64,000 bases of DNA. It comes from Verrucomicrobiia bacterium (lineage in GTDB: Bacteria; Verrucomicrobiota; Verrucomicrobiia; Palsa-1439). The translations under genes and the position numbers were made by a program. Positions 1 through 12,349 of this stretch are shown one piece after another. The DNA is taken from contig JAJVHY010000011.1 of NCBI GenBank assembly GCA_022072455.1, forward strand, positions 1-64,000. Direction: 5' to 3'. The notes beneath the pieces were generated by a model. The model did not search any database, was not told the origin of the DNA, and was given only the letters and a program-made list of their open reading frames with translations. Every line of letters starts with the position of its first letter. Within the stretch, counting starts at the first letter, position 1.

Positions 1-326
1 GTCTCGCTGGCGACTTGCTTAGTTTGAAATTTGGGTTTTATCAGGCTAACGCAATACGCTGTCTTGTAGGCACTTCCAGCAAACCCAAGCTGAATCAAGG
101 TATTTCAAGCTTTTAACTAAGTCTCAGCGCTGCGACTATTCCGGTACGCTGTGGAGTCATAGAATGGCGTCACGGGATGACTCATTGGCGGGATTCTGTC
201 ATTGCTGGGGGAGATTGCACATTGGTGCGCTCGCGGATGTCCGCGGTCACGTCGTAAAGCCGAACGGACGGTAGCTTAGTGGCTCGCCATAGAAGTGTAC
301 GTTGTGATAAACATCAGGGAAGCAAG
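1..326. other. Intergenic stretch upstream of the methyltransferase, no gene seen
   Basis: I find no convincing coding region, tRNA or repeat in this stretch. It has the same lower G+C as the three genes that follow, so it probably belongs to the same acquired island. The left boundary of that island lies outside the window. A promoter for the downstream three-gene unit should lie here, but I cannot point to a clear -35/-10 pair. Confidence 0.5.
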
Positions 327-1466
327 ATGAGCATCTGCAAAACTCGCACGTTAACGGGTGGACGCGGCACAACTCGACGCAATAATGCCGAGTTGAATCT
401 TGACGTGCGGTTGTTTCCCACAACACGATATCAAGGAAGCAAACGGAAAATAACCCCGTGGCTTTGGGACTGCTTTCATAAGTTGGACTTCAGTTCGGCA
501 CTTGATGCTTTTGGCGGTACTGGTTCGGTGAGTTATCTACTCAAGAAAATGGGCAAGAAGGTAACGTACAATGATGTTCTCCGCTTCAATCATCAAGTCG
601 GCTTGGCTCTGATCGAAAATAGTGACGTGACGCTTGGACAAAAGGATATTGATTTCGCACAAATGCCACCGTCCAAGTCCACGCGCAGTTTCGTGAGGGA
701 TACATTTGGCGGTGTCTATTTCACCGACGAGGAGAACAAATGGCTTGATGCCGTCGTAGATAGAATCGACGCATTGGGTTCTGGAGCGGGGAGATCAATC
801 TACAAGCGAGCGCTTTTGTACTACGCCTTATTTCAGAGTTGTTTGATCAAACGTCCTTTCAATCTCTTTCACCGCCGGAATCTTTATCTTAGGTTTGCCA
901 AAGTTGATCGGGAATTCGGCAACAAGGTGAGTTGGGACAAGTCTTTTAGTGACCATTTTGCCTCGTTCTGCGCTGAGGCCAATAAACTTGTATTCAGCGG
1001 GCAAAAACCATGTAGGGCTATTTGTTACGACGTTCTTGAGCTGCCGAAAACTTGTTATGATTTGGTTTACCTTGACCCTCCCTATTTGACGAGGAACAGC
1101 ACGAACGAAAGTTCCAACTATCTGAGGTGTTACCACTTCTTGGAAGGGCTTTGTAACTATGATATTTGGGGTGAGCTGATTGACTACGACACTCCAAATC
1201 TTCGAATGAAGCAGCTACAGGCTAGTGCTTGGGTTGATCGCGAAAGAAACACTAAGGCATTCGACGCGCTTTTTGAGAAGTTCGCCGATAGCATTATAGT
1301 TATCTCATACAAGAAATTTGGTGTGCCGAGCATTGAGACATTGATTAAGATGCTGAAGAGACATGGCAGGAAAGTGAGAACGCATAGCCGTCACTACAAG
1401 TATGCGTTGAATCATCAAAACGGAGATGCCCAGTATAATCGGGAAGTATTGTTAATTGCGGAATAG
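327..1466 (+). CDS. D12-class (Dam-like) N6-adenine DNA methyltransferase
   Basis: Predicted to transfer a methyl group from S-adenosylmethionine to adenine N6 in a short DNA target. Visible motifs, numbered from this start: YQGSK at about 35 (motif X), DAFGGTGS at 60 (SAM-binding motif I) and DPPY at 250-253 (catalytic motif IV). This X-I-IV order is that of the alpha/D12 class. The protein is 379 aa, longer than E. coli Dam (about 278). I chose ATG 327 because AGGGA lies six bases upstream; a GTG at 279 would add 16 residues. It is the first of three same-strand genes with short gaps, beside a GHKL ATPase and an ABC ATPase, in low-G+C DNA. No cognate nuclease is recognisable, so it is either a solitary methylase or the self-marking part of a defence unit (inference). 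Confidence 0.88.
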   Translation: MSICKTRTLTGGRGTTRRNNAELNLDVRLFPTTRYQGSKRKITPWLWDCFHKLDFSSALDAFGGTGSVSYLLKKMGKKVTYNDVLRFNHQVGLALIENSDVTLGQKDIDFAQMPPSKSTRSFVRDTFGGVYFTDEENKWLDAVVDRIDALGSGAGRSIYKRALLYYALFQSCLIKRPFNLFHRRNLYLRFAKVDREFGNKVSWDKSFSDHFASFCAEANKLVFSGQKPCRAICYDVLELPKTCYDLVYLDPPYLTRNSTNESSNYLRCYHFLEGLCNYDIWGELIDYDTPNLRMKQLQASAWVDRERNTKAFDALFEKFADSIIVISYKKFGVPSIETLIKMLKRHGRKVRTHSRHYKYALNHQNGDAQYNREVLLIAE

Positions 1467-1481
1467 CCGCTGCACGTTTGT

Positions 1482-3044
1482 ATGCCAGAACAATTTGAAA
1501 CACGCTTGACGGTGGATAAGAGCATTGTGGAATTGCTCAGCAAATCCACTTATCAGAGACATCTTTCCCATGCCCTTCGAGAAATGGTCAGCAACGCTTA
1601 CGATGCCGATGCGGCCAAAGTCAATATCGACATCGACCGCAACGCCAACAACATCGTAATTCACGATACTGGCAGCGGTATGACGCAGCACGACTTCAAT
1701 TACTATCTTCGAATTGCTGGGAAGCGCCGCGGGAAGGAAAGAACAGCCAAGTTTAATCGAATACGTATAGGTCAGTTTGGCGTTGGATTCTTATCAATAT
1801 TTCCCTTCTGTAAGGCCATTAAAATCACGACGACCACAGAGAACTCTGACGTGGTTCTATCAGCACAGATTCCGGCAATCGACTTTTTTAAGCGTGGTGA
1901 AGCGATCGATGTTGAAAAGGTGCCTGTGACGGGAGTGATTTACAGCGACAGAAGCAAACTTTCCGAGCATTTTACCACCATTACTCTTCATGGACTCACC
2001 GATGTTGCAAAAGCTTCAATATCGACAGCAGTCCCTCCAATTGGAAAGCGCCGTGCTGTAAGTATCGTCGATTGGTCGCCTCTGGAGCGGTTGAAGTGGG
2101 AGCTTCAAGATGAATTACCTTTGCCGTTCCAAAAGTCTTCACCGTATGCACATTTTTTCAACTACTCGGAATCCGATCTAATCCAAGTGTTCGTGAACGA
2201 AGAGCCGTTGTATCGAAATGACTTAGGAGGCGATCTAATCGATACCGGCACTTACGATCAAGACGGTGTCAAAGCTCGCTACGCAATCTGCACTCCATGG
2301 AAAGCAATCACTCCGATAGAAATGAGACACGTTAAGCTCCGCCTTAATAACGTGGGTGTTGGCTCCCGTAGCGATTTTGATATCGCACGCATCCGTCCAT
2401 ATGGCCACCTTTCATGGGTGAGCGGCGAACTGCATATCATCGATGGCTTGTCAGATTCAATCAGCCTCAGTCGAGACTCGTTTGTAGAAAGTCCACCGCT
2501 GGAAAAGCTAAAAGCGCATATGGACAAAGTGCTCCGTCGACAGGCTACTTATATCGAGAATGTCGAGAACAGCAGAAAGACGATCACCAAACATGTATCT
2601 CGTCAAAAACAGCGGCAAGTTGCACCAACTAAAGAGATAGTGGCCGACAACCTCAAGAAATTAGAGGATAAAGGCTTTACTGTCCTAAAAGTCCAATCCA
2701 AAGCGGGGGCCTCGGGCGATGCGGTTACAATTAATCGTTCTAAAAAGTTGGTCACGGTTATTGAAAACCACCCGTCTTTTCACGATACCGTGAAGATTGC
2801 TGGGCGCGAGTATGGTGTTATTTACAAGGAATCAAATCCGCCCAATGGTGAACCCTGCGTTTTTCTCAACGACAAAACCTTAGAAGTGTTTAGCCGTTTC
2901 CCGCTTTTTCGCTCTAAACGCTACGGGCAATTATTCCAGCGAATATGCATCTTGATGGCAATCGCAGAGAGGGAATGCAATACAGCGCAGCAGATGCACG
3001 CATTTGTATTGGAGCATATGCCGGAAACATTTGAGGACTACTAA
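1482..3044 (+). CDS. GHKL (Hsp90/MORC-like) ATPase
   Basis: The N-terminal 180 residues form a GHKL ATP-binding fold of the HSP90/MORC type. The N-box is EMVSNAYDAD (E34, N38), the G1 box DTGSGM starts at 62 and the lid motif GQFGVGF at 97. Conserved Glu and Asn suggest active ATP hydrolysis and ATP-driven dimer closure (family knowledge). Residues 180-370 look like the transducer half. The 150-residue C-terminal part, after a basic stretch near 365-385, is not recognised. It starts 15 bases after the methyltransferase stop and is followed 21 bases later by an ABC ATPase, which implies one transcript. I do not recognise it as MutL, topoisomerase or HtpG. Its function is unknown; a role in DNA sensing or defence is inference. 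Confidence 0.8.
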   Translation: MPEQFETRLTVDKSIVELLSKSTYQRHLSHALREMVSNAYDADAAKVNIDIDRNANNIVIHDTGSGMTQHDFNYYLRIAGKRRGKERTAKFNRIRIGQFGVGFLSIFPFCKAIKITTTTENSDVVLSAQIPAIDFFKRGEAIDVEKVPVTGVIYSDRSKLSEHFTTITLHGLTDVAKASISTAVPPIGKRRAVSIVDWSPLERLKWELQDELPLPFQKSSPYAHFFNYSESDLIQVFVNEEPLYRNDLGGDLIDTGTYDQDGVKARYAICTPWKAITPIEMRHVKLRLNNVGVGSRSDFDIARIRPYGHLSWVSGELHIIDGLSDSISLSRDSFVESPPLEKLKAHMDKVLRRQATYIENVENSRKTITKHVSRQKQRQVAPTKEIVADNLKKLEDKGFTVLKVQSKAGASGDAVTINRSKKLVTVIENHPSFHDTVKIAGREYGVIYKESNPPNGEPCVFLNDKTLEVFSRFPLFRSKRYGQLFQRICILMAIAERECNTAQQMHAFVLEHMPETFEDY

Positions 3045-3065
3045 GGTTGAAAGAGCACTGACACC

Positions 3066-4265
3066 ATGTTTATCAAATCACTCGAGATAACAAATTTCCG
3101 CAGCTTGAAAAAGGTTCGCATTGACGGCATGCAGCCTATTTGCATTTTTCATGGGCTGAATAATTCAGGAAAATCCAACATCTTCGCAGCTCTTGATTTG
3201 ATCCTGAAGAGCAAGTTTATCGTCGACGCACCAGTGGTAGAACTTGGGACGGAAAAAAAAGAGTTTACTCGAAAGGACACAAGCTTCTACACCGGCCGGT
3301 TAGACGGATTTGAGGACAACTTTTACATGAATCGGCGCGATCCGATTGAGTTTAAGTTGCGTGTTGAATTCCAGCCAGAGGAATTGAAGCGTCATAAGGA
3401 TATTCTCGAAATGATAAAGCCCGAGGGTCCTGGTTCGGGCAATCGGCGAACCCTACGCCTGAGCGATGGTCACGCAAACGTTCTAATTGTTTCAGGGGCG
3501 TTCGTCTATGTTGATGATCAATCATGTGATGTTGTGACCAAACAAGTATCGTTGAATGAAAACTACATTCTTTATCGCAAAACCGGTGAGAAATTGGACT
3601 ATCTTCCATCGCTTCATGACTCGCCTAAAGCTGACTTAGACGCGCGAGTCCAAGTGTTTGAAAATCTAATGCGCCAATTGACTGACTCGTTCCAAGTGAT
3701 TGGAGCCGACAGATTCTTGGGAACCGAAAAACTATCTCTAGATCTTGAAACTCAGAAGCTAACATCTGAATCGTTTAAGCGGTTCCTGTTCTGGCTATCG
3801 ACCCACAAAACAAGACACCAGCAGTTCAAAGAGATTTGTGATCATTTTGGAAAGAAGCCATTTCCGTTTGGCGAAGTGAGTTTCTTCGTGGACCGCAAAA
3901 CGAACGAGATCGAGGTAATGATTGAGCGTTCGAAGCTACGGCTGCCGTTAGGACGACTAGGATCAGGGGTTCAGCAAATTCTTTTTCTCATCGCGAGCGT
4001 ATTGTCGAATCAAAAGAAGATTATCGCTATCGAAGAGATAGAGTTAAATCTATCAAAGGAAGCCCAAAGAGAGGTTTTCGAGATGTTGAAGGCGATGGTT
4101 AAAAGCGGGAAAATACTTCAACAGGTTATCGTTACAAGCCATAGTCCATATTTCCAAGATCGTGCGGATGTTAAGTATTATGAGGTCATGTACGATCATT
4201 CGGCTCTAGAAACAAATGTGAAACCAGCGACTAAGGGGCGATTGAAGATCTATCACAGGCTGTAG
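3066..4265 (+). CDS. ABC-type (OLD/RecF/AAA15-like) ATPase, no nuclease domain seen
   Basis: A 399-residue SMC/RecF-like ATPase. It starts with the typical ITNFRSL strand. Walker A GLNNSGKS is at 30-37, a signature-like LGSGVQQ near 300, Walker B IIAIEEIE near 319 and a switch histidine in TSHSPYF near 358. This is the single-chain ATPase layout of OLD nucleases, PtuA and AriA. Unlike OLD proteins it ends about 40 residues after the switch histidine, so there is no room for a TOPRIM nuclease. The effector would have to be another protein, perhaps the adjacent GHKL ATPase. It is the last gene of the low-G+C three-gene unit and is followed by a repeat tract, not by an obvious fourth gene. Confidence 0.85.
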   Translation: MFIKSLEITNFRSLKKVRIDGMQPICIFHGLNNSGKSNIFAALDLILKSKFIVDAPVVELGTEKKEFTRKDTSFYTGRLDGFEDNFYMNRRDPIEFKLRVEFQPEELKRHKDILEMIKPEGPGSGNRRTLRLSDGHANVLIVSGAFVYVDDQSCDVVTKQVSLNENYILYRKTGEKLDYLPSLHDSPKADLDARVQVFENLMRQLTDSFQVIGADRFLGTEKLSLDLETQKLTSESFKRFLFWLSTHKTRHQQFKEICDHFGKKPFPFGEVSFFVDRKTNEIEVMIERSKLRLPLGRLGSGVQQILFLIASVLSNQKKIIAIEEIELNLSKEAQREVFEMLKAMVKSGKILQQVIVTSHSPYFQDRADVKYYEVMYDHSALETNVKPATKGRLKIYHRL

Positions 4266-4299
4266 AATCTGATCGCGAGTTTGCACCCCAGACAGTTTT

Positions 4300-4462
4300 C
4301 CCGGCTCCCCCAAAGGCAGACCGGGCTACCCGCAGGATTTTTCGGGTTCCCCCAGACTTTTTGCCGTCACTTGTCGACGCGGACCGGGCTTCCCGTGCTC
4401 TAAACCGGGCTCCCCGCGAAGCCGACCGGGCTCCCCGCGGATTCGGCGCGGGCTCCCCGCGG
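4300..4462. repeat. Degenerate 21-bp-period tandem repeat
   Basis: Copies related to CCGGGCTCCCCGCG start near 4301, 4321, 4342, 4383, 4404, 4425 and 4447. The spacings are 20, 21, 41 (two periods, one unit decayed), 21, 21 and 22. The best copies are the last four. The stretch 4266-4544 contains nothing else that I recognise. It separates the low-G+C island from the high-G+C chromosome and lies downstream of both the ABC ATPase and the convergent GreA/GreB-like gene. There are no unique spacers of CRISPR size. It could be a protein-binding or recombination tract, or a slippage product. Confidence 0.7.
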
Positions 4463-4544: not shown

Positions 4545-4925
4545 CTACCGGTAACTGACGGAAATGATTTCCAACTCGGCGTTGCGGAACTTCACGCATT
4601 GGCCGACGCGGGCGTTGAGGAGCGCTTTCGCGAGAGGCGAAATCCAACTGATCCAGTTCTGGTCCGTGTCGGTTTCGTCAACGCCGACGAGCCGGTAGGT
4701 GGTCTCGCCGTCGGCATCTTTGACGGTGACAGTGGCGCCGAAGCGGACTTGGTCGGTTGGCTCCGTCGGCGGGGGGACGATGACGGCATCGGACGGAAGC
4801 TGTTTGCCCAGCCGGCGCGCGCCGGCGGGCGTGATGTAGTTGGGGACGCCGGGCGGCAATGGGGACGAACGGACCGGTGGACGTTCCGGTGTGTCATCAG
4901 ATTCGCGGACGAAGGCGCGGCTCAT
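4545..4925 (-). CDS. GreA/GreB C-terminal domain protein lacking the coiled coil
   Basis: A 126-aa protein starting MSRAFVRESDD. It has the leader seen in GreB proteins (RAFVRESDD, then PNYITPAGARRL). It then passes within about 15 residues into the FKBP-like C-terminal domain (VRFGATVTVKDADGETTYRLVGVDE, split here by my reading only). The usual 70-residue N-terminal helical hairpin, which carries the acidic tip that stimulates RNA polymerase cleavage, is absent. It probably binds RNA polymerase near the secondary channel but cannot act as a classical cleavage factor; Rnk is a precedent for short Gre-like proteins. ATG 4925 was preferred over an upstream start at 4988 because the leader motif begins there. 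It diverges from the gene at 4982. Confidence 0.78.
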   Translation of the reverse strand: MSRAFVRESDDTPERPPVRSSPLPPGVPNYITPAGARRLGKQLPSDAVIVPPPTEPTDQVRFGATVTVKDADGETTYRLVGVDETDTDQNWISWISPLAKALLNARVGQCVKFRNAELEIISVSYR

Positions 4926-4981
4926 GCCGGGAGTGTAGCATGGACACCCGGGAGGGGCTTCTCTATATTCCGCGCAACGTG

Positions 4982-6262
4982 ATGACACCGATTGAACGTG
5001 CGACGCAGATTCGCGACCAGATACCGGCGGGCGGATTGTTTGCCGGGATGACTTGGCGGATTGCGCCGGAGGCTTTTCCGTTGCCGGCCGAACTGGTGGC
5101 CAAACTCGAAGCGCTGGGGCCGATGTTGTTGGCGTTCTACCGCGCCGGCAACACGCTGTACCGGCATTCGCTCGCCGGTAAGCAGCCGAAATGGGTCGCG
5201 GATTATCTCGACGCCGGTAAACCGCCGCGGTTGTTGGAGATTTCGCGGAGTGACCGGATCAAGTCGCATGTGCCACGGGTGATCCGGCCGGATGTGATTT
5301 TGAACGACGAGCATTTTTTCATCACCGAACTCGATAGTGTGCCGGGCGGGATTGGTCTGACAGGGTGGCTGGGGAAAACTTACGCGGAGCTCGGTGATGA
5401 CGTCATCGGTGGCGCGACGGGGATGATGGAAGGTTTTTCTCAGGCGATGCAGATCGAGAAGCATCCGTTGTCGGTGATCGTGAGCGACGAGTCGGCGACG
5501 TACCGGCCCGAGATGGAGTGGTTGGGCCGGCAGTGCGGGTTTCGGGTGATGCGGCCGGAGGAGTGGACGGAAACGCGGGCGACGGTATACCGGTTTTTTG
5601 AGTTGTTTGATTTGCCAAATGTCGCGAATGCCTACGAGATTCTAGCCGGGAATGTGACGCCGCCGCCGAAGCCGCAGTTGGAGGAGAAGGCGTTGTTTGC
5701 GTTGTTGTGGATGGAACAACTCCGGCCGTTCTGGAAGGAGATGCTGGGCGAGGGGACGTTGCGGGCGTTGCAGGAGCACATGCCGCAGACGTGGATCGTG
5801 GATGCGACGCCGTTGCCGCCGCACGCAGTGGTGGCCGGGTTGAATATCAATGATTGGCGCGAGATGGCTTCTTTCTCCCAGAAGCAACGGGAGTTGGTGT
5901 TGAAGATTTCCGGGTTTCACGAGCAGGCATGGGGCAGCCGGGGGGTGTATGTGGGACATGATTTGCCGGCGAAAGAGTGGGCGGAGGCGATTGAGCGGGC
6001 GTTGGCGTCGTTTCCAGAGCATCCGTTCATCCTCCAGAAATTTGAAAAGTCGAAGCTGATGGAGGCGACGTACGTCGAGGGCGATGAGGTGAAGACGTTT
6101 CCCGGTCGGGTCCGGTTGTGTCCGTACTATTTTGTTGCCGGCGATACGGCGACGCTCGGGGGAATCCTGGCGACGATCGTGCCGGCGAACAAAAAGATCA
6201 TTCACGGGATGGCCGACGCCGTGTTGGCCCCTTGCCGGCGAGAGGCGGAATCGGGTAAATAA
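4982..6262 (+). CDS. Conserved protein, possibly ATP-grasp-like
   Basis: A 426-residue soluble protein without signal peptide. I do not recognise a named family. Some stretches recall circularly permuted ATP-grasp ligases of the glutathionylspermidine synthase type: ITELDSVPGGIGLTG near 112, VIVSDESATYRPEME near 163, and FILQKFEKSKLMEATY near 350. That would suggest an ATP-dependent carboxylate-amine ligase, but I cannot verify the metal and nucleotide ligands, so this stays a weak inference. ATG 4982 starts 56 bases from the divergent GreA/GreB-like gene; an earlier in-frame start at 4859 would run through that gene. The MscS gene follows after five bases, so the two are likely co-transcribed. 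Confidence 0.6.
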   Translation: MTPIERATQIRDQIPAGGLFAGMTWRIAPEAFPLPAELVAKLEALGPMLLAFYRAGNTLYRHSLAGKQPKWVADYLDAGKPPRLLEISRSDRIKSHVPRVIRPDVILNDEHFFITELDSVPGGIGLTGWLGKTYAELGDDVIGGATGMMEGFSQAMQIEKHPLSVIVSDESATYRPEMEWLGRQCGFRVMRPEEWTETRATVYRFFELFDLPNVANAYEILAGNVTPPPKPQLEEKALFALLWMEQLRPFWKEMLGEGTLRALQEHMPQTWIVDATPLPPHAVVAGLNINDWREMASFSQKQRELVLKISGFHEQAWGSRGVYVGHDLPAKEWAEAIERALASFPEHPFILQKFEKSKLMEATYVEGDEVKTFPGRVRLCPYYFVAGDTATLGGILATIVPANKKIIHGMADAVLAPCRREAESGK

Positions 6263-10521: not shown

Positions 10522-10923
10522 CCGGTATTCGAGGATAATATATTCGCCGTCGGCCGAAGTTCCGCGACTGATTTCGCGCCAACCGTGTTTGGTGTAGAAG
10601 GCGCGGGCGAGTTCGTTTTTGGCGACGCACTTGAGTTGGTAGGGAAGGGGAAGCCACTGGCGGAGACTGTCGAGTAACTGTTTTCCGATGCCGCAGCGTT
10701 GGTGTTGCGGGGCGACGTAAAGATGGTGAATAAAACGGTCCGGTTCCCAAATGGAGATGAAGCCGACCGGCTTTTTCTCGACGGCGACGTAGATGATTTC
10801 GCCGGCAGTCTGTTGCTCGAAGTCGCTGAGTACCGGGATTTGCCAGGGGAAAACTTGCCGGCGGGCGTCGAGAAAGATTTGCGCCAATTGCGGGTAGTCA
10901 GCCGGTTGGGCTTTGCGGATCAT
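10516..10923 (-). CDS. GNAT family N-acetyltransferase
   Basis: A 135-aa single-domain acetyltransferase. It begins MIRKAQPADYPQL, the usual first strand and helix. HHLYVAPQHQRCGIGKQLLD contains the acetyl-CoA pyrophosphate loop Q-R-x-G-x-G. FYTKHGW near the C-terminus is the common last motif. The acceptor (amine, protein or antibiotic) cannot be told. ATG 10923 was chosen because the domain begins there. An upstream start would add 32 residues without domain character. Confidence 0.87.
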   Translation of the reverse strand: MIRKAQPADYPQLAQIFLDARRQVFPWQIPVLSDFEQQTAGEIIYVAVEKKPVGFISIWEPDRFIHHLYVAPQHQRCGIGKQLLDSLRQWLPLPYQLKCVAKNELARAFYTKHGWREISRGTSADGEYIILEYRL

Positions 10924-11047
10924 TCGTGTCGGGAGGATACCATACGACGGAGTTTCACCAGAAGCGTTGACGCTGTTTTGTTCCGATGATATTTTTCGAT
11001 TAAATTCAGGATTAGTCAACGAGTCGCCAACTCATGGAGTTCCCATT

Positions 11048-11845
11048 ATGAAATTTCAATCAATTCTTTCCATCGGCCTTCTGTCAGCATTCCTCGGCGG
11101 TGGGGGATGGACAGCGGCGCATGCCGATCGGGCTGAACTCCAAGCCCGAATTGTCGCCATTGATAAGGAACTGGCCGACTTTCAGAAACTCGCAGTTCAG
11201 GATCCGGATGTCCAAACGGCGCAAGCGGCGGTCAACGAAACCTACACCCACTATAATAAAGCGCAGGATGACTGTGCGGGTTTTCGGGAAGCCCAGGCAG
11301 CAGTCAATGCAGCCTATCAAAAGTACAATGAAGCAGTCGCGGCTTGTCCAGGCTACCAAGCAGCACTCACCGCCATGCAGACGGCCTACGAAAAATATAA
11401 CCGCGCGCGGGCAGCCTGCCCGGGGGTTACCGCGGCGTTGGCGGATTTGCAGAAGGCATTTGCGGATCACAGTCGGGCACCGGATGACAACACACAGGCG
11501 GCGATCTCCGCAGCCCAACTGAAGATCACCGAAGCGCAAGCCGTTTGTCCGGAAATTAAAGCAGGCGCCGATGAAATTCAGGAGACTCAGGCGCAAGTCA
11601 ACAAAGTGAAGGACGGGTGTCTCGACATTCAGATGTACCGCGATGCCATCGGGCCCGCGCAGGAGAAAAGCGCCGCAGTCCAAGCCGCGTGCCCGAACCT
11701 GAAAACCACCCGCGAAGCCACGACTGCCGCGCAGACCAGGCGACACGAGGCACTTCAGGCCGCAATGTTAAAAGTAGATCCGAAGGTTGGCGGGTTGTTG
11801 GCTGAAAAGAATAAGCTCCTCGCTGAACTAGCAGAGACCAAATAG
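11048..11845 (+). CDS. Exported helical protein built of 24-residue Cys repeats
   Basis: A 265-aa protein with a signal peptide (about 1-26, ending AAHA-D). From residue 53 to 239 it is made of eight units: 53-76, 77-100, 101-124, 125-148, 149-167 (shortened), 168-191, 192-215 and 216-239. A typical unit begins PG or PD, has a Q-A-A-x-x-x-A-Y-x-K-Y-N core, and ends A-A-C or D-D-C. The Cys recurs every 24 residues, with N in unit 4 and A in unit 8. A Lys/Glu-rich tail follows. The units are strongly helical. I do not recognise a family. Stacked helical hairpins or a long coiled coil linked by disulfides in the periplasm is inference. ATG 11048 has GGAG seven bases upstream. Confidence 0.8.
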   Translation: MKFQSILSIGLLSAFLGGGGWTAAHADRAELQARIVAIDKELADFQKLAVQDPDVQTAQAAVNETYTHYNKAQDDCAGFREAQAAVNAAYQKYNEAVAACPGYQAALTAMQTAYEKYNRARAACPGVTAALADLQKAFADHSRAPDDNTQAAISAAQLKITEAQAVCPEIKAGADEIQETQAQVNKVKDGCLDIQMYRDAIGPAQEKSAAVQAACPNLKTTREATTAAQTRRHEALQAAMLKVDPKVGGLLAEKNKLLAELAETK

Positions 11846-11906
11846 CTCGCGGCACACGCCGGCTGACGGATACGGAGAGGAGTTTTGCCGGGCATTTTCG
11901 AGCCTG

Positions 11907-11935
11907 TTGACAACTTTCGGCAATCTTGTTAGGAA
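11907..11935 (+). promoter_or_regulatory. Possible promoter of the nuo operon
   Basis: A perfect TTGACA lies at 11907-11912, followed after 17 bases by TAGGAA, a poor -10 match. It sits 46 bases before nuoA, in the only gap over 100 bases ahead of the 15-gene run. The position and perfect -35 box are the only support. Confidence 0.35.
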
Positions 11936-11980
11936 GTTTGTGAAATTTGGAACAAGGTTGGTGTGGTGCTGGTTCCGTTC

Positions 11981-12349
11981 ATGACTGATTTATACACGAA
12001 GCATTATTTATTCGTCGTGGTGTTTCTAGCGGTCGCGGTGGGTTTCCCGCTCGCACCGCTCGTGCTCGCACGTATTCTCGCCCCCCGCAAATCCGGGCAG
12101 ACCAAAAACGATATTTATGAGTGCGGTCTGACGGCCAAAGGCGATGCGTGGGTCCAATTCCGGGTTGGCTACTATATATATGCATTGGTCTACGTCATCT
12201 TCGCAGTCGAAACCGTGTTCCTTTACCCGTGGGCGGTGGCGTTCCTCGGTCTCGGTGTCGGGGCATTTGTCGCGATGATGATTTTCGTGGTGTTGTTACT
12301 CGAAGGATTGTTGTACGCGTGGTCGAAGGGCGCGTTGGACTGGAAATAA
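11981..12349 (+). CDS. nuoA: NADH-quinone oxidoreductase subunit A
   Basis: A 122-aa membrane subunit of respiratory complex I. It has three transmembrane helices (about 8-30, 65-85 and 90-110). The loop motif [18 protein letters not shown] contains the Cys near the quinone site (equivalent of Cys39 of mitochondrial ND3), and VFLYPWAV the conserved third segment. The start could also be GTG 11963; neither has a clear ribosome site. It opens the operon and is separated from nuoB by one base. Confidence 0.93.

Follow-up and report, generated by a model that had tools for sequence, protein, structure and literature searches.

The repeat gene and its surroundings

The window, a stretch of 64,000 nucleotides from a Verrucomicrobiia bacterium (contig JAJVHY010000011.1), contains at 11048-11845 on the forward strand an open reading frame of 265 amino acids, with an ATG at 11048 and a stop codon at 11843-11845. 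The gene is flanked by a GNAT gene upstream and by nuoA downstream (start at about 11984). Its G+C content at the three codon positions (0.66, 0.45 and 0.59) is coding-like and close to that of a paralogue described below (0.62, 0.40 and 0.57). The export signal appears ordinary by eye, with Lys, a hydrophobic stretch and AHA ahead of D27. The following features were assigned:

10967..10995, + strand: weak sigma-70-like promoter match, TTGACG-17-TATTTT with TG before the second hexamer (consensus scan)
11036..11039, + strand: GGAG, likely ribosome-binding site, 8 nt 5' of the ATG (sequence)
11048..11125, + strand: signal peptide of 26 residues (1-26), probably cleaved after AHA (by eye and paralogue alignment)
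11126..11200, + strand: helix 1, residues 27-51, AELQARIVAIDKEL, common to the short family (alignment with the paralogue, model)
11201..11272, + strand: unit 1, residues 52-75, starting with the putatively ancestral Asp-Pro (DPDV; sequence comparison)
11273..11344, + strand: unit 2, residues 76-99, starting with Cys76 (CAGF; helix break in the 122-residue model, none in the full model)
11345..11416, + strand: unit 3, residues 100-123, starting with Cys100 (CPGY; helix break in both models)
11417..11488, + strand: unit 4, residues 124-147, starting with Cys124 (CPGV; helix break in both models)
11489..11545, + strand: unit 5, shortened, residues 148-166 (19 residues), starting with Asn148 (sequence)
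11546..11617, + strand: unit 6, residues 167-190, starting with Cys167 (CPEI; sequence and full model)
11618..11689, + strand: unit 7, residues 191-214, starting with Cys191 (CLDI; sequence and full model)
11690..11776, + strand: unit 8, residues 215-243, starting with Cys215 (CPNL); the next Asp-Pro follows after 29 residues, which is also the paralogue's spacing (sequence)
11777..11842, + strand: C-terminal helix, residues 244-265, DPKVGGLLAEKNKLLAEL, common to the short family (alignments with short relatives)

The promoter scan, which covered 10900-12050, returned three such sites where 0.4 were expected. An element of the form TTGACA...TTCGGCAATCTTG...GTGAAATTTGGAACAAGG at 11906-11957, upstream of nuoA, is probably the promoter of the nuo operon; inspection by eye showed it in the majority of eight aligned genomes of the same family, L065 and L066 excepted. 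Because nuoA has this conserved upstream element of its own, the repeat gene probably forms a separate transcript.

Elsewhere in the window, positions 1-4300 have a low G+C content (46-47% versus 55-60% beside them) and carry three consecutive genes, for a D12 adenine methyltransferase, a HATPase_c_3 protein and an AAA_15 ATPase. This stretch resembles an island of the mobile or defence type. An open reading frame of 467 residues at 4859-6262, located ahead of an MscS-type channel gene, matched nothing in Pfam at E up to 1e-5.

A cysteine ladder with a period of 24 residues

The mature protein possesses six cysteines, at positions 76, 100, 124, 167, 191 and 215 (spacings 24, 24, 43, 24 and 24), and each of them sits at a joint between units. 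When six cysteines were placed at random 1,000,000 times, 10 placements had four equal spacings, and none of 20000 shuffles within units brought the six into line. The BLOSUM autocorrelation at lag 24 was 1.09; the best lag of 2000 shuffled sequences averaged -0.18 (sd 0.08, maximum 0.20). A preliminary description had drawn the units so that they close on these joints: 53-76, 77-100 and 101-124 ending in Cys, 125-148 in Asn, 149-167 (19 residues), 168-191 and 192-215 in Cys, and 216-239 in Ala. This pattern proved exact. Its summary as eight Cys-ending repeats holds for six of the eight units, Asn and Ala closing the other two.

Among the seven units of full length (without the 19-residue one) Cys is the most conserved of the 24 columns, with identity in 15 of 21 pairwise comparisons. 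After it come two Ala columns (11 of 21 pairs) and a Pro column (10 of 21). The mean identity of unit pairs is 26%. At the DNA level the pairwise identity between units is 0.29-0.53 and no direct repeat was detected by a search within the gene, which means that the copies are old and represent neither recent DNA duplications nor an assembly artefact.

Single-sequence AlphaFold2 models of the mature protein (239 aa; pLDDT 88.5, pTM 0.48) and of residues 27-148 (122 aa; pLDDT 83.2, pTM 0.58) were computed; both are all-helical. The longer model has helix breaks at C100, C124, C167, C191 and C215 and a continuous helix through C76, while the shorter has breaks of three residues at C76 and C100 and of two residues at C124. 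The breaks in the shorter model are long enough for hairpins, which may form there; the units might be stacked in this way or might make up a kinked rod. Both pTM values are low, so that the models give helices and breaks rather than a settled tertiary fold. The earlier view of an exported, helical protein with regular cysteines is supported by the sequence, by the statistics of the 24-residue period and by both models. A Foldseek search with the models gave no match with E under 0.001. Coiled-coil matches from Foldseek and VIA (SH3BP5, receptor-binding arms of colicins, SMC and RipA) had large rmsd values, mostly 8-30 Å, and no fold is claimed from them.

Relationship to a family of short exported proteins

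The preliminary description did not recognise a family. One does exist, and it comes into view through a Cys-free paralogue and through short proteins spread over the class. The paralogue, P0002 (locus L002), is encoded in the same genome, has 116 residues and lacks the repeats. It matches residues 1-61 of the repeat protein and, separately, residues 219-262, with 41% identity over residues 1-54 (pairwise E 1e-9) and 45% over 219-262. The genus-mate Kiruna2_bin-0915 (G001) has a short form, P0003, which is 34% identical to P0002 over 87 residues. Both short proteins have the two ends in common with the repeat protein, and in both the repeats are absent. Adjoining the gene for P0003, at L003 1979-3124 (-), lies an open reading frame with repeated Cys pairs (GSVACSPASGTTF...LVTCT) that resemble HYR-type domains by eye.

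A profile (A2) was built from five short stretches, one of them from the repeat protein itself. With an E limit of 0.01 it matched in 69 of the 384 genomes searched within the class, belonging to 28 of 171 genera, as counted by profile E-value rather than by reading each protein. Some of the matched proteins carry two copies. Twenty-eight short members were aligned (A3; L020 and L056, which had no readable family protein, were left out). Their consensus comprises a signal peptide, an LTxxER-type helix, a DPxV helix, an AMxKADP turn and a PILEK helix. The central helix connects two Asp-Pro pairs spaced 29 residues apart (DPxV...AMxKxDP). None of the 28 has a Cys after residue 28.

The repeat protein shares with these proteins the signal peptide and N-terminal helix, both like those of the paralogue, the register of the [D/E/R/T]PxV helix, the AMxKxDP turn and the C-terminal LLxEKxKL helix, and its unit 8 runs for 29 residues to DPKV. 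The A2 score of the stretch from unit 8 to DPKV (6.3e-25) is circular, since this stretch is a row of A2; independent support for the C-terminal part comes from the paralogue match over 219-262 and from the register test described next. The differences are that short members have one or two DPxV helices versus about eight, and no mature Cys in 28 of 28 versus six. Because of these six cysteines the repeat protein is, as judged by sequence comparison, a derived relative of the short DPxV family and not a typical member.

For the register test a matrix was built from the six Cys-starting units alone and run over the relatives. In P0002 it picked the 24 residues from DPDV with a score of 25.5 (next best 2.8); shuffles averaged 4.8 (sd 3.0) and none of 3000 reached 25.5. 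In P0003 it picked DPEV. Among the 28 aligned members it fell exactly on [DNE]P in 16 and on the equivalent EADV, RPEV or TPEV in five more, being four residues off in four and elsewhere in three. Hydrophobic positions 4, 7, 11, 14, 18 and 21 are common to the units and the DPxV helix (18 of 28 members in a column count). A comparison of a two-unit profile with the family profile was weak (probability 32.5, E 0.00047, 20 columns) and had the register right; a first two-unit alignment (A4) was out of register and was discarded. Taken together, the register test, the shared hydrophobic positions and the 29-residue unit 8 place Cys where Asp caps the helix in the family.

Expansion of one helix of the small exported family is thus well supported as the origin of the repeat. 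As the sequence shows, tandem copying has multiplied the first 24 residues of the DPxV helix about sevenfold, the copies lying between the family's N- and C-terminal helices, and the helix-capping Asp has given way to Cys at six joints. Duplication within the family has taken more than one form: proteins at L042, L046, L047, L049 and L055 carry a pair of DPxV-type domains, in most cases joined by a linker rich in Gly, Pro and Ser. A short member at L044 1402-1785 (-) has AAYRAYWDSVRAAM in its helix, near AAYQKYNEAVAAC of the window, and is a possible model of the helix before expansion.

The repeat gene is known from one species. Full-protein searches of 39, 11, 384 and 387 genomes (overlapping sets) revealed no second repeat-bearing protein; in the two largest sets six candidates at most per genome were scored, so that misses are possible. 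No repeat-bearing relative was found in genome contigs, viral contigs or a plasmid collection. Of 13 new loci from the 384-genome search, ten of which were viewed through open reading frames rich in A, E, K, Q and L and three in the scan for Cys ladders, L016 alone looked related. A two-unit profile (A5) found the window protein alone in 384 genomes, apart from two chance matches, one Skp/OmpH-like and one TPR-like (labels by eye). A scan for Cys ladders in 1917 open reading frames of 82 loci and the window returned the repeat gene, in the window and in eight further retrievals of the same sequence, and two others, in L052 and L019; the latter are not the matched proteins and seem by eye to be non-coding frames. 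In a survey of the slot upstream of nuoA in 11 genomes, seven genomes of the family with sufficient sequence ahead of nuoA (L059, L060, L061, L063, L064, L065 and L066) had other genes there, never the repeat gene; the sequence of L062 was short and two genomes gave just a second, more distant nuoA-like match. No such cysteine repeat protein was named in the literature searched on 24-residue repeats, helix N-cap cysteine, LTXXQ/ZraP/CnrX, Ric proteins, Verrucomicrobia with Spy/CpxP, disulfide formation in Verrucomicrobia, or the Kiruna2 genomes.

Sequence searches of Pfam, NCBIfam and PDB with the full protein gave only weak coiled-coil noise, and no curated family scored above its own cut-off for the short DPxV proteins among the matches listed. 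The short members resemble PF13801 (Metal_resist) and PF07813 (LTXXQ), which include CpxP, Spy, ZraP and CnrX, in being small, exported and helical. PF13801 matched 14 of the 28 at E up to 0.01, but every score among the matches listed was below the cut-off of 29.2, and the window protein had no match at E up to 1 or 0.05. When the first 28 residues were cut from ten short members, six matched PF13801 at E 0.00067-0.068 and one matched LTXXQ at 0.012. Part of the match had come from the signal peptide, which weakened the case for membership of the short family in Metal_resist. LTAMQ occurs once in the repeat protein, at residues 107-111 within a repeat helix; the LTxxER of the short relatives lies ahead of the DPxV helix in the consensus. 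CpxP, Spy, ZraP and CnrX are helical proteins of the periplasm with links to metal and envelope stress, and we regard them as a lead for function, not as evidence of membership. The other resemblance is to Com_YlbF/RicA (PF06133), which matched three of the 28 short members at E up to 0.01 and was not among the matches listed for the window protein. RicA superposed on the 122-residue model, one half of the protein, with 3.6 Å over 102 residues and Z 7.6, but it stands out by rmsd only, a Z of 7.6 being common for helical bundles according to the tool. RicA also lacks a 24-residue Cys ladder and is cytoplasmic.

Possible roles of the cysteines

The homologues have neither repeats nor mature cysteines, so conservation of Cys is visible only between the units of one protein; from these repeats, in one genome, we infer selection on the cysteines. 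According to one study, cysteines at helix starts are under-represented in human structures, are predicted to be reactive and have predicted pKa values shifted downwards (PMC5703995). The explanation we prefer, tentatively and at somewhat less than even confidence, is a periplasmic array of helices capped by probably reactive thiols that bind soft metals or oxidants. The exported protein is predicted to consist almost entirely of helix and to turn or kink at most Cys joints. Thiols at helix N-termini would have a lowered pKa and would make good nucleophiles and soft-metal ligands. Up to six such sites in the periplasm might bind Cu, Zn, Hg and the like or, alternatively, react with oxidants or electrophiles.

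Several observations count against this explanation. C76 lies within a continuous helix in the full-length model, and the repeat gene has no CxxC, His-rich stretch or metal-gene neighbour. Geometry may also be unfavourable. If each unit reverses direction, Cys76, 124, 167 and 215 would lie at one end and Cys100 and 191 at the other, and in such an antiparallel array the distance between cysteines at the same end may be too great for a shared metal. Pairing of cysteines or sharing of metal would then probably need a dimer.

The main rival to the thiol array is disulfide stapling, in which the six cysteines would pair within a chain or between two chains to yield a stiff, protease-resistant envelope spacer. 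Export, the even number and strict regularity of the cysteines and the coiled-coil-like helices would suit such a rod. So would the position of Cys, which continues the 3-4 hydrophobic spacing at a point that allows cross-links in parallel dimers. The genome (completeness 95.57%), however, has no match to VKOR, Thioredoxin_4, DSBA or DsbB, families that were found in 3, 9, 8 and 6, respectively, of 14 control genomes. This leans against an enzyme-made disulfide ladder but does not decide the matter. It favours reactive or metal-binding thiols, and we consider the stapled rod rather unlikely.

It might also be thought that Cys is nothing but an inherited helix cap: the founder unit would have had Cys-Pro by chance, and the thiols would serve no redox or metal chemistry. 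Such an origin would agree with the replacement of a capping Asp by Cys, with the Asn at one joint and with the Asp-Pro at both terminal joints. A helix should be capped equally well by Asp, Asn, Ser or Thr, however, and Cys has been kept at six of seven internal joints while the mean identity of the units dropped to 26%, which makes the inherited cap improbable. An ordinary Ala-rich coiled coil with regularity by chance would account for the weak similarity to coiled coils in the Pfam, NCBIfam and PDB searches but is hardly credible given a 24-residue period far above shuffles, a conserved Cys column and a register homologous to the DPxV helix.

The reactive-thiol explanation has a stronger form, which is speculative and on balance unlikely: a new kind of periplasmic polythiol, in which a ladder of six low-pKa, helix-capping cysteines would act together as a sponge for metals or oxidants in a bacterium without recognisable Dsb or VKOR. 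If it is true, thiols could stay reduced outside the cytoplasm without a Dsb or VKOR system. The repeat protein, with six helix-start cysteines set in register by repeat expansion and a Cys-free parent family still present in the same genome, is a clean natural experiment on the way a new chemistry arises in a repeat protein. It also brings to light a family of small exported proteins that is widespread in the class and that the curated models do not cover in the searches made.
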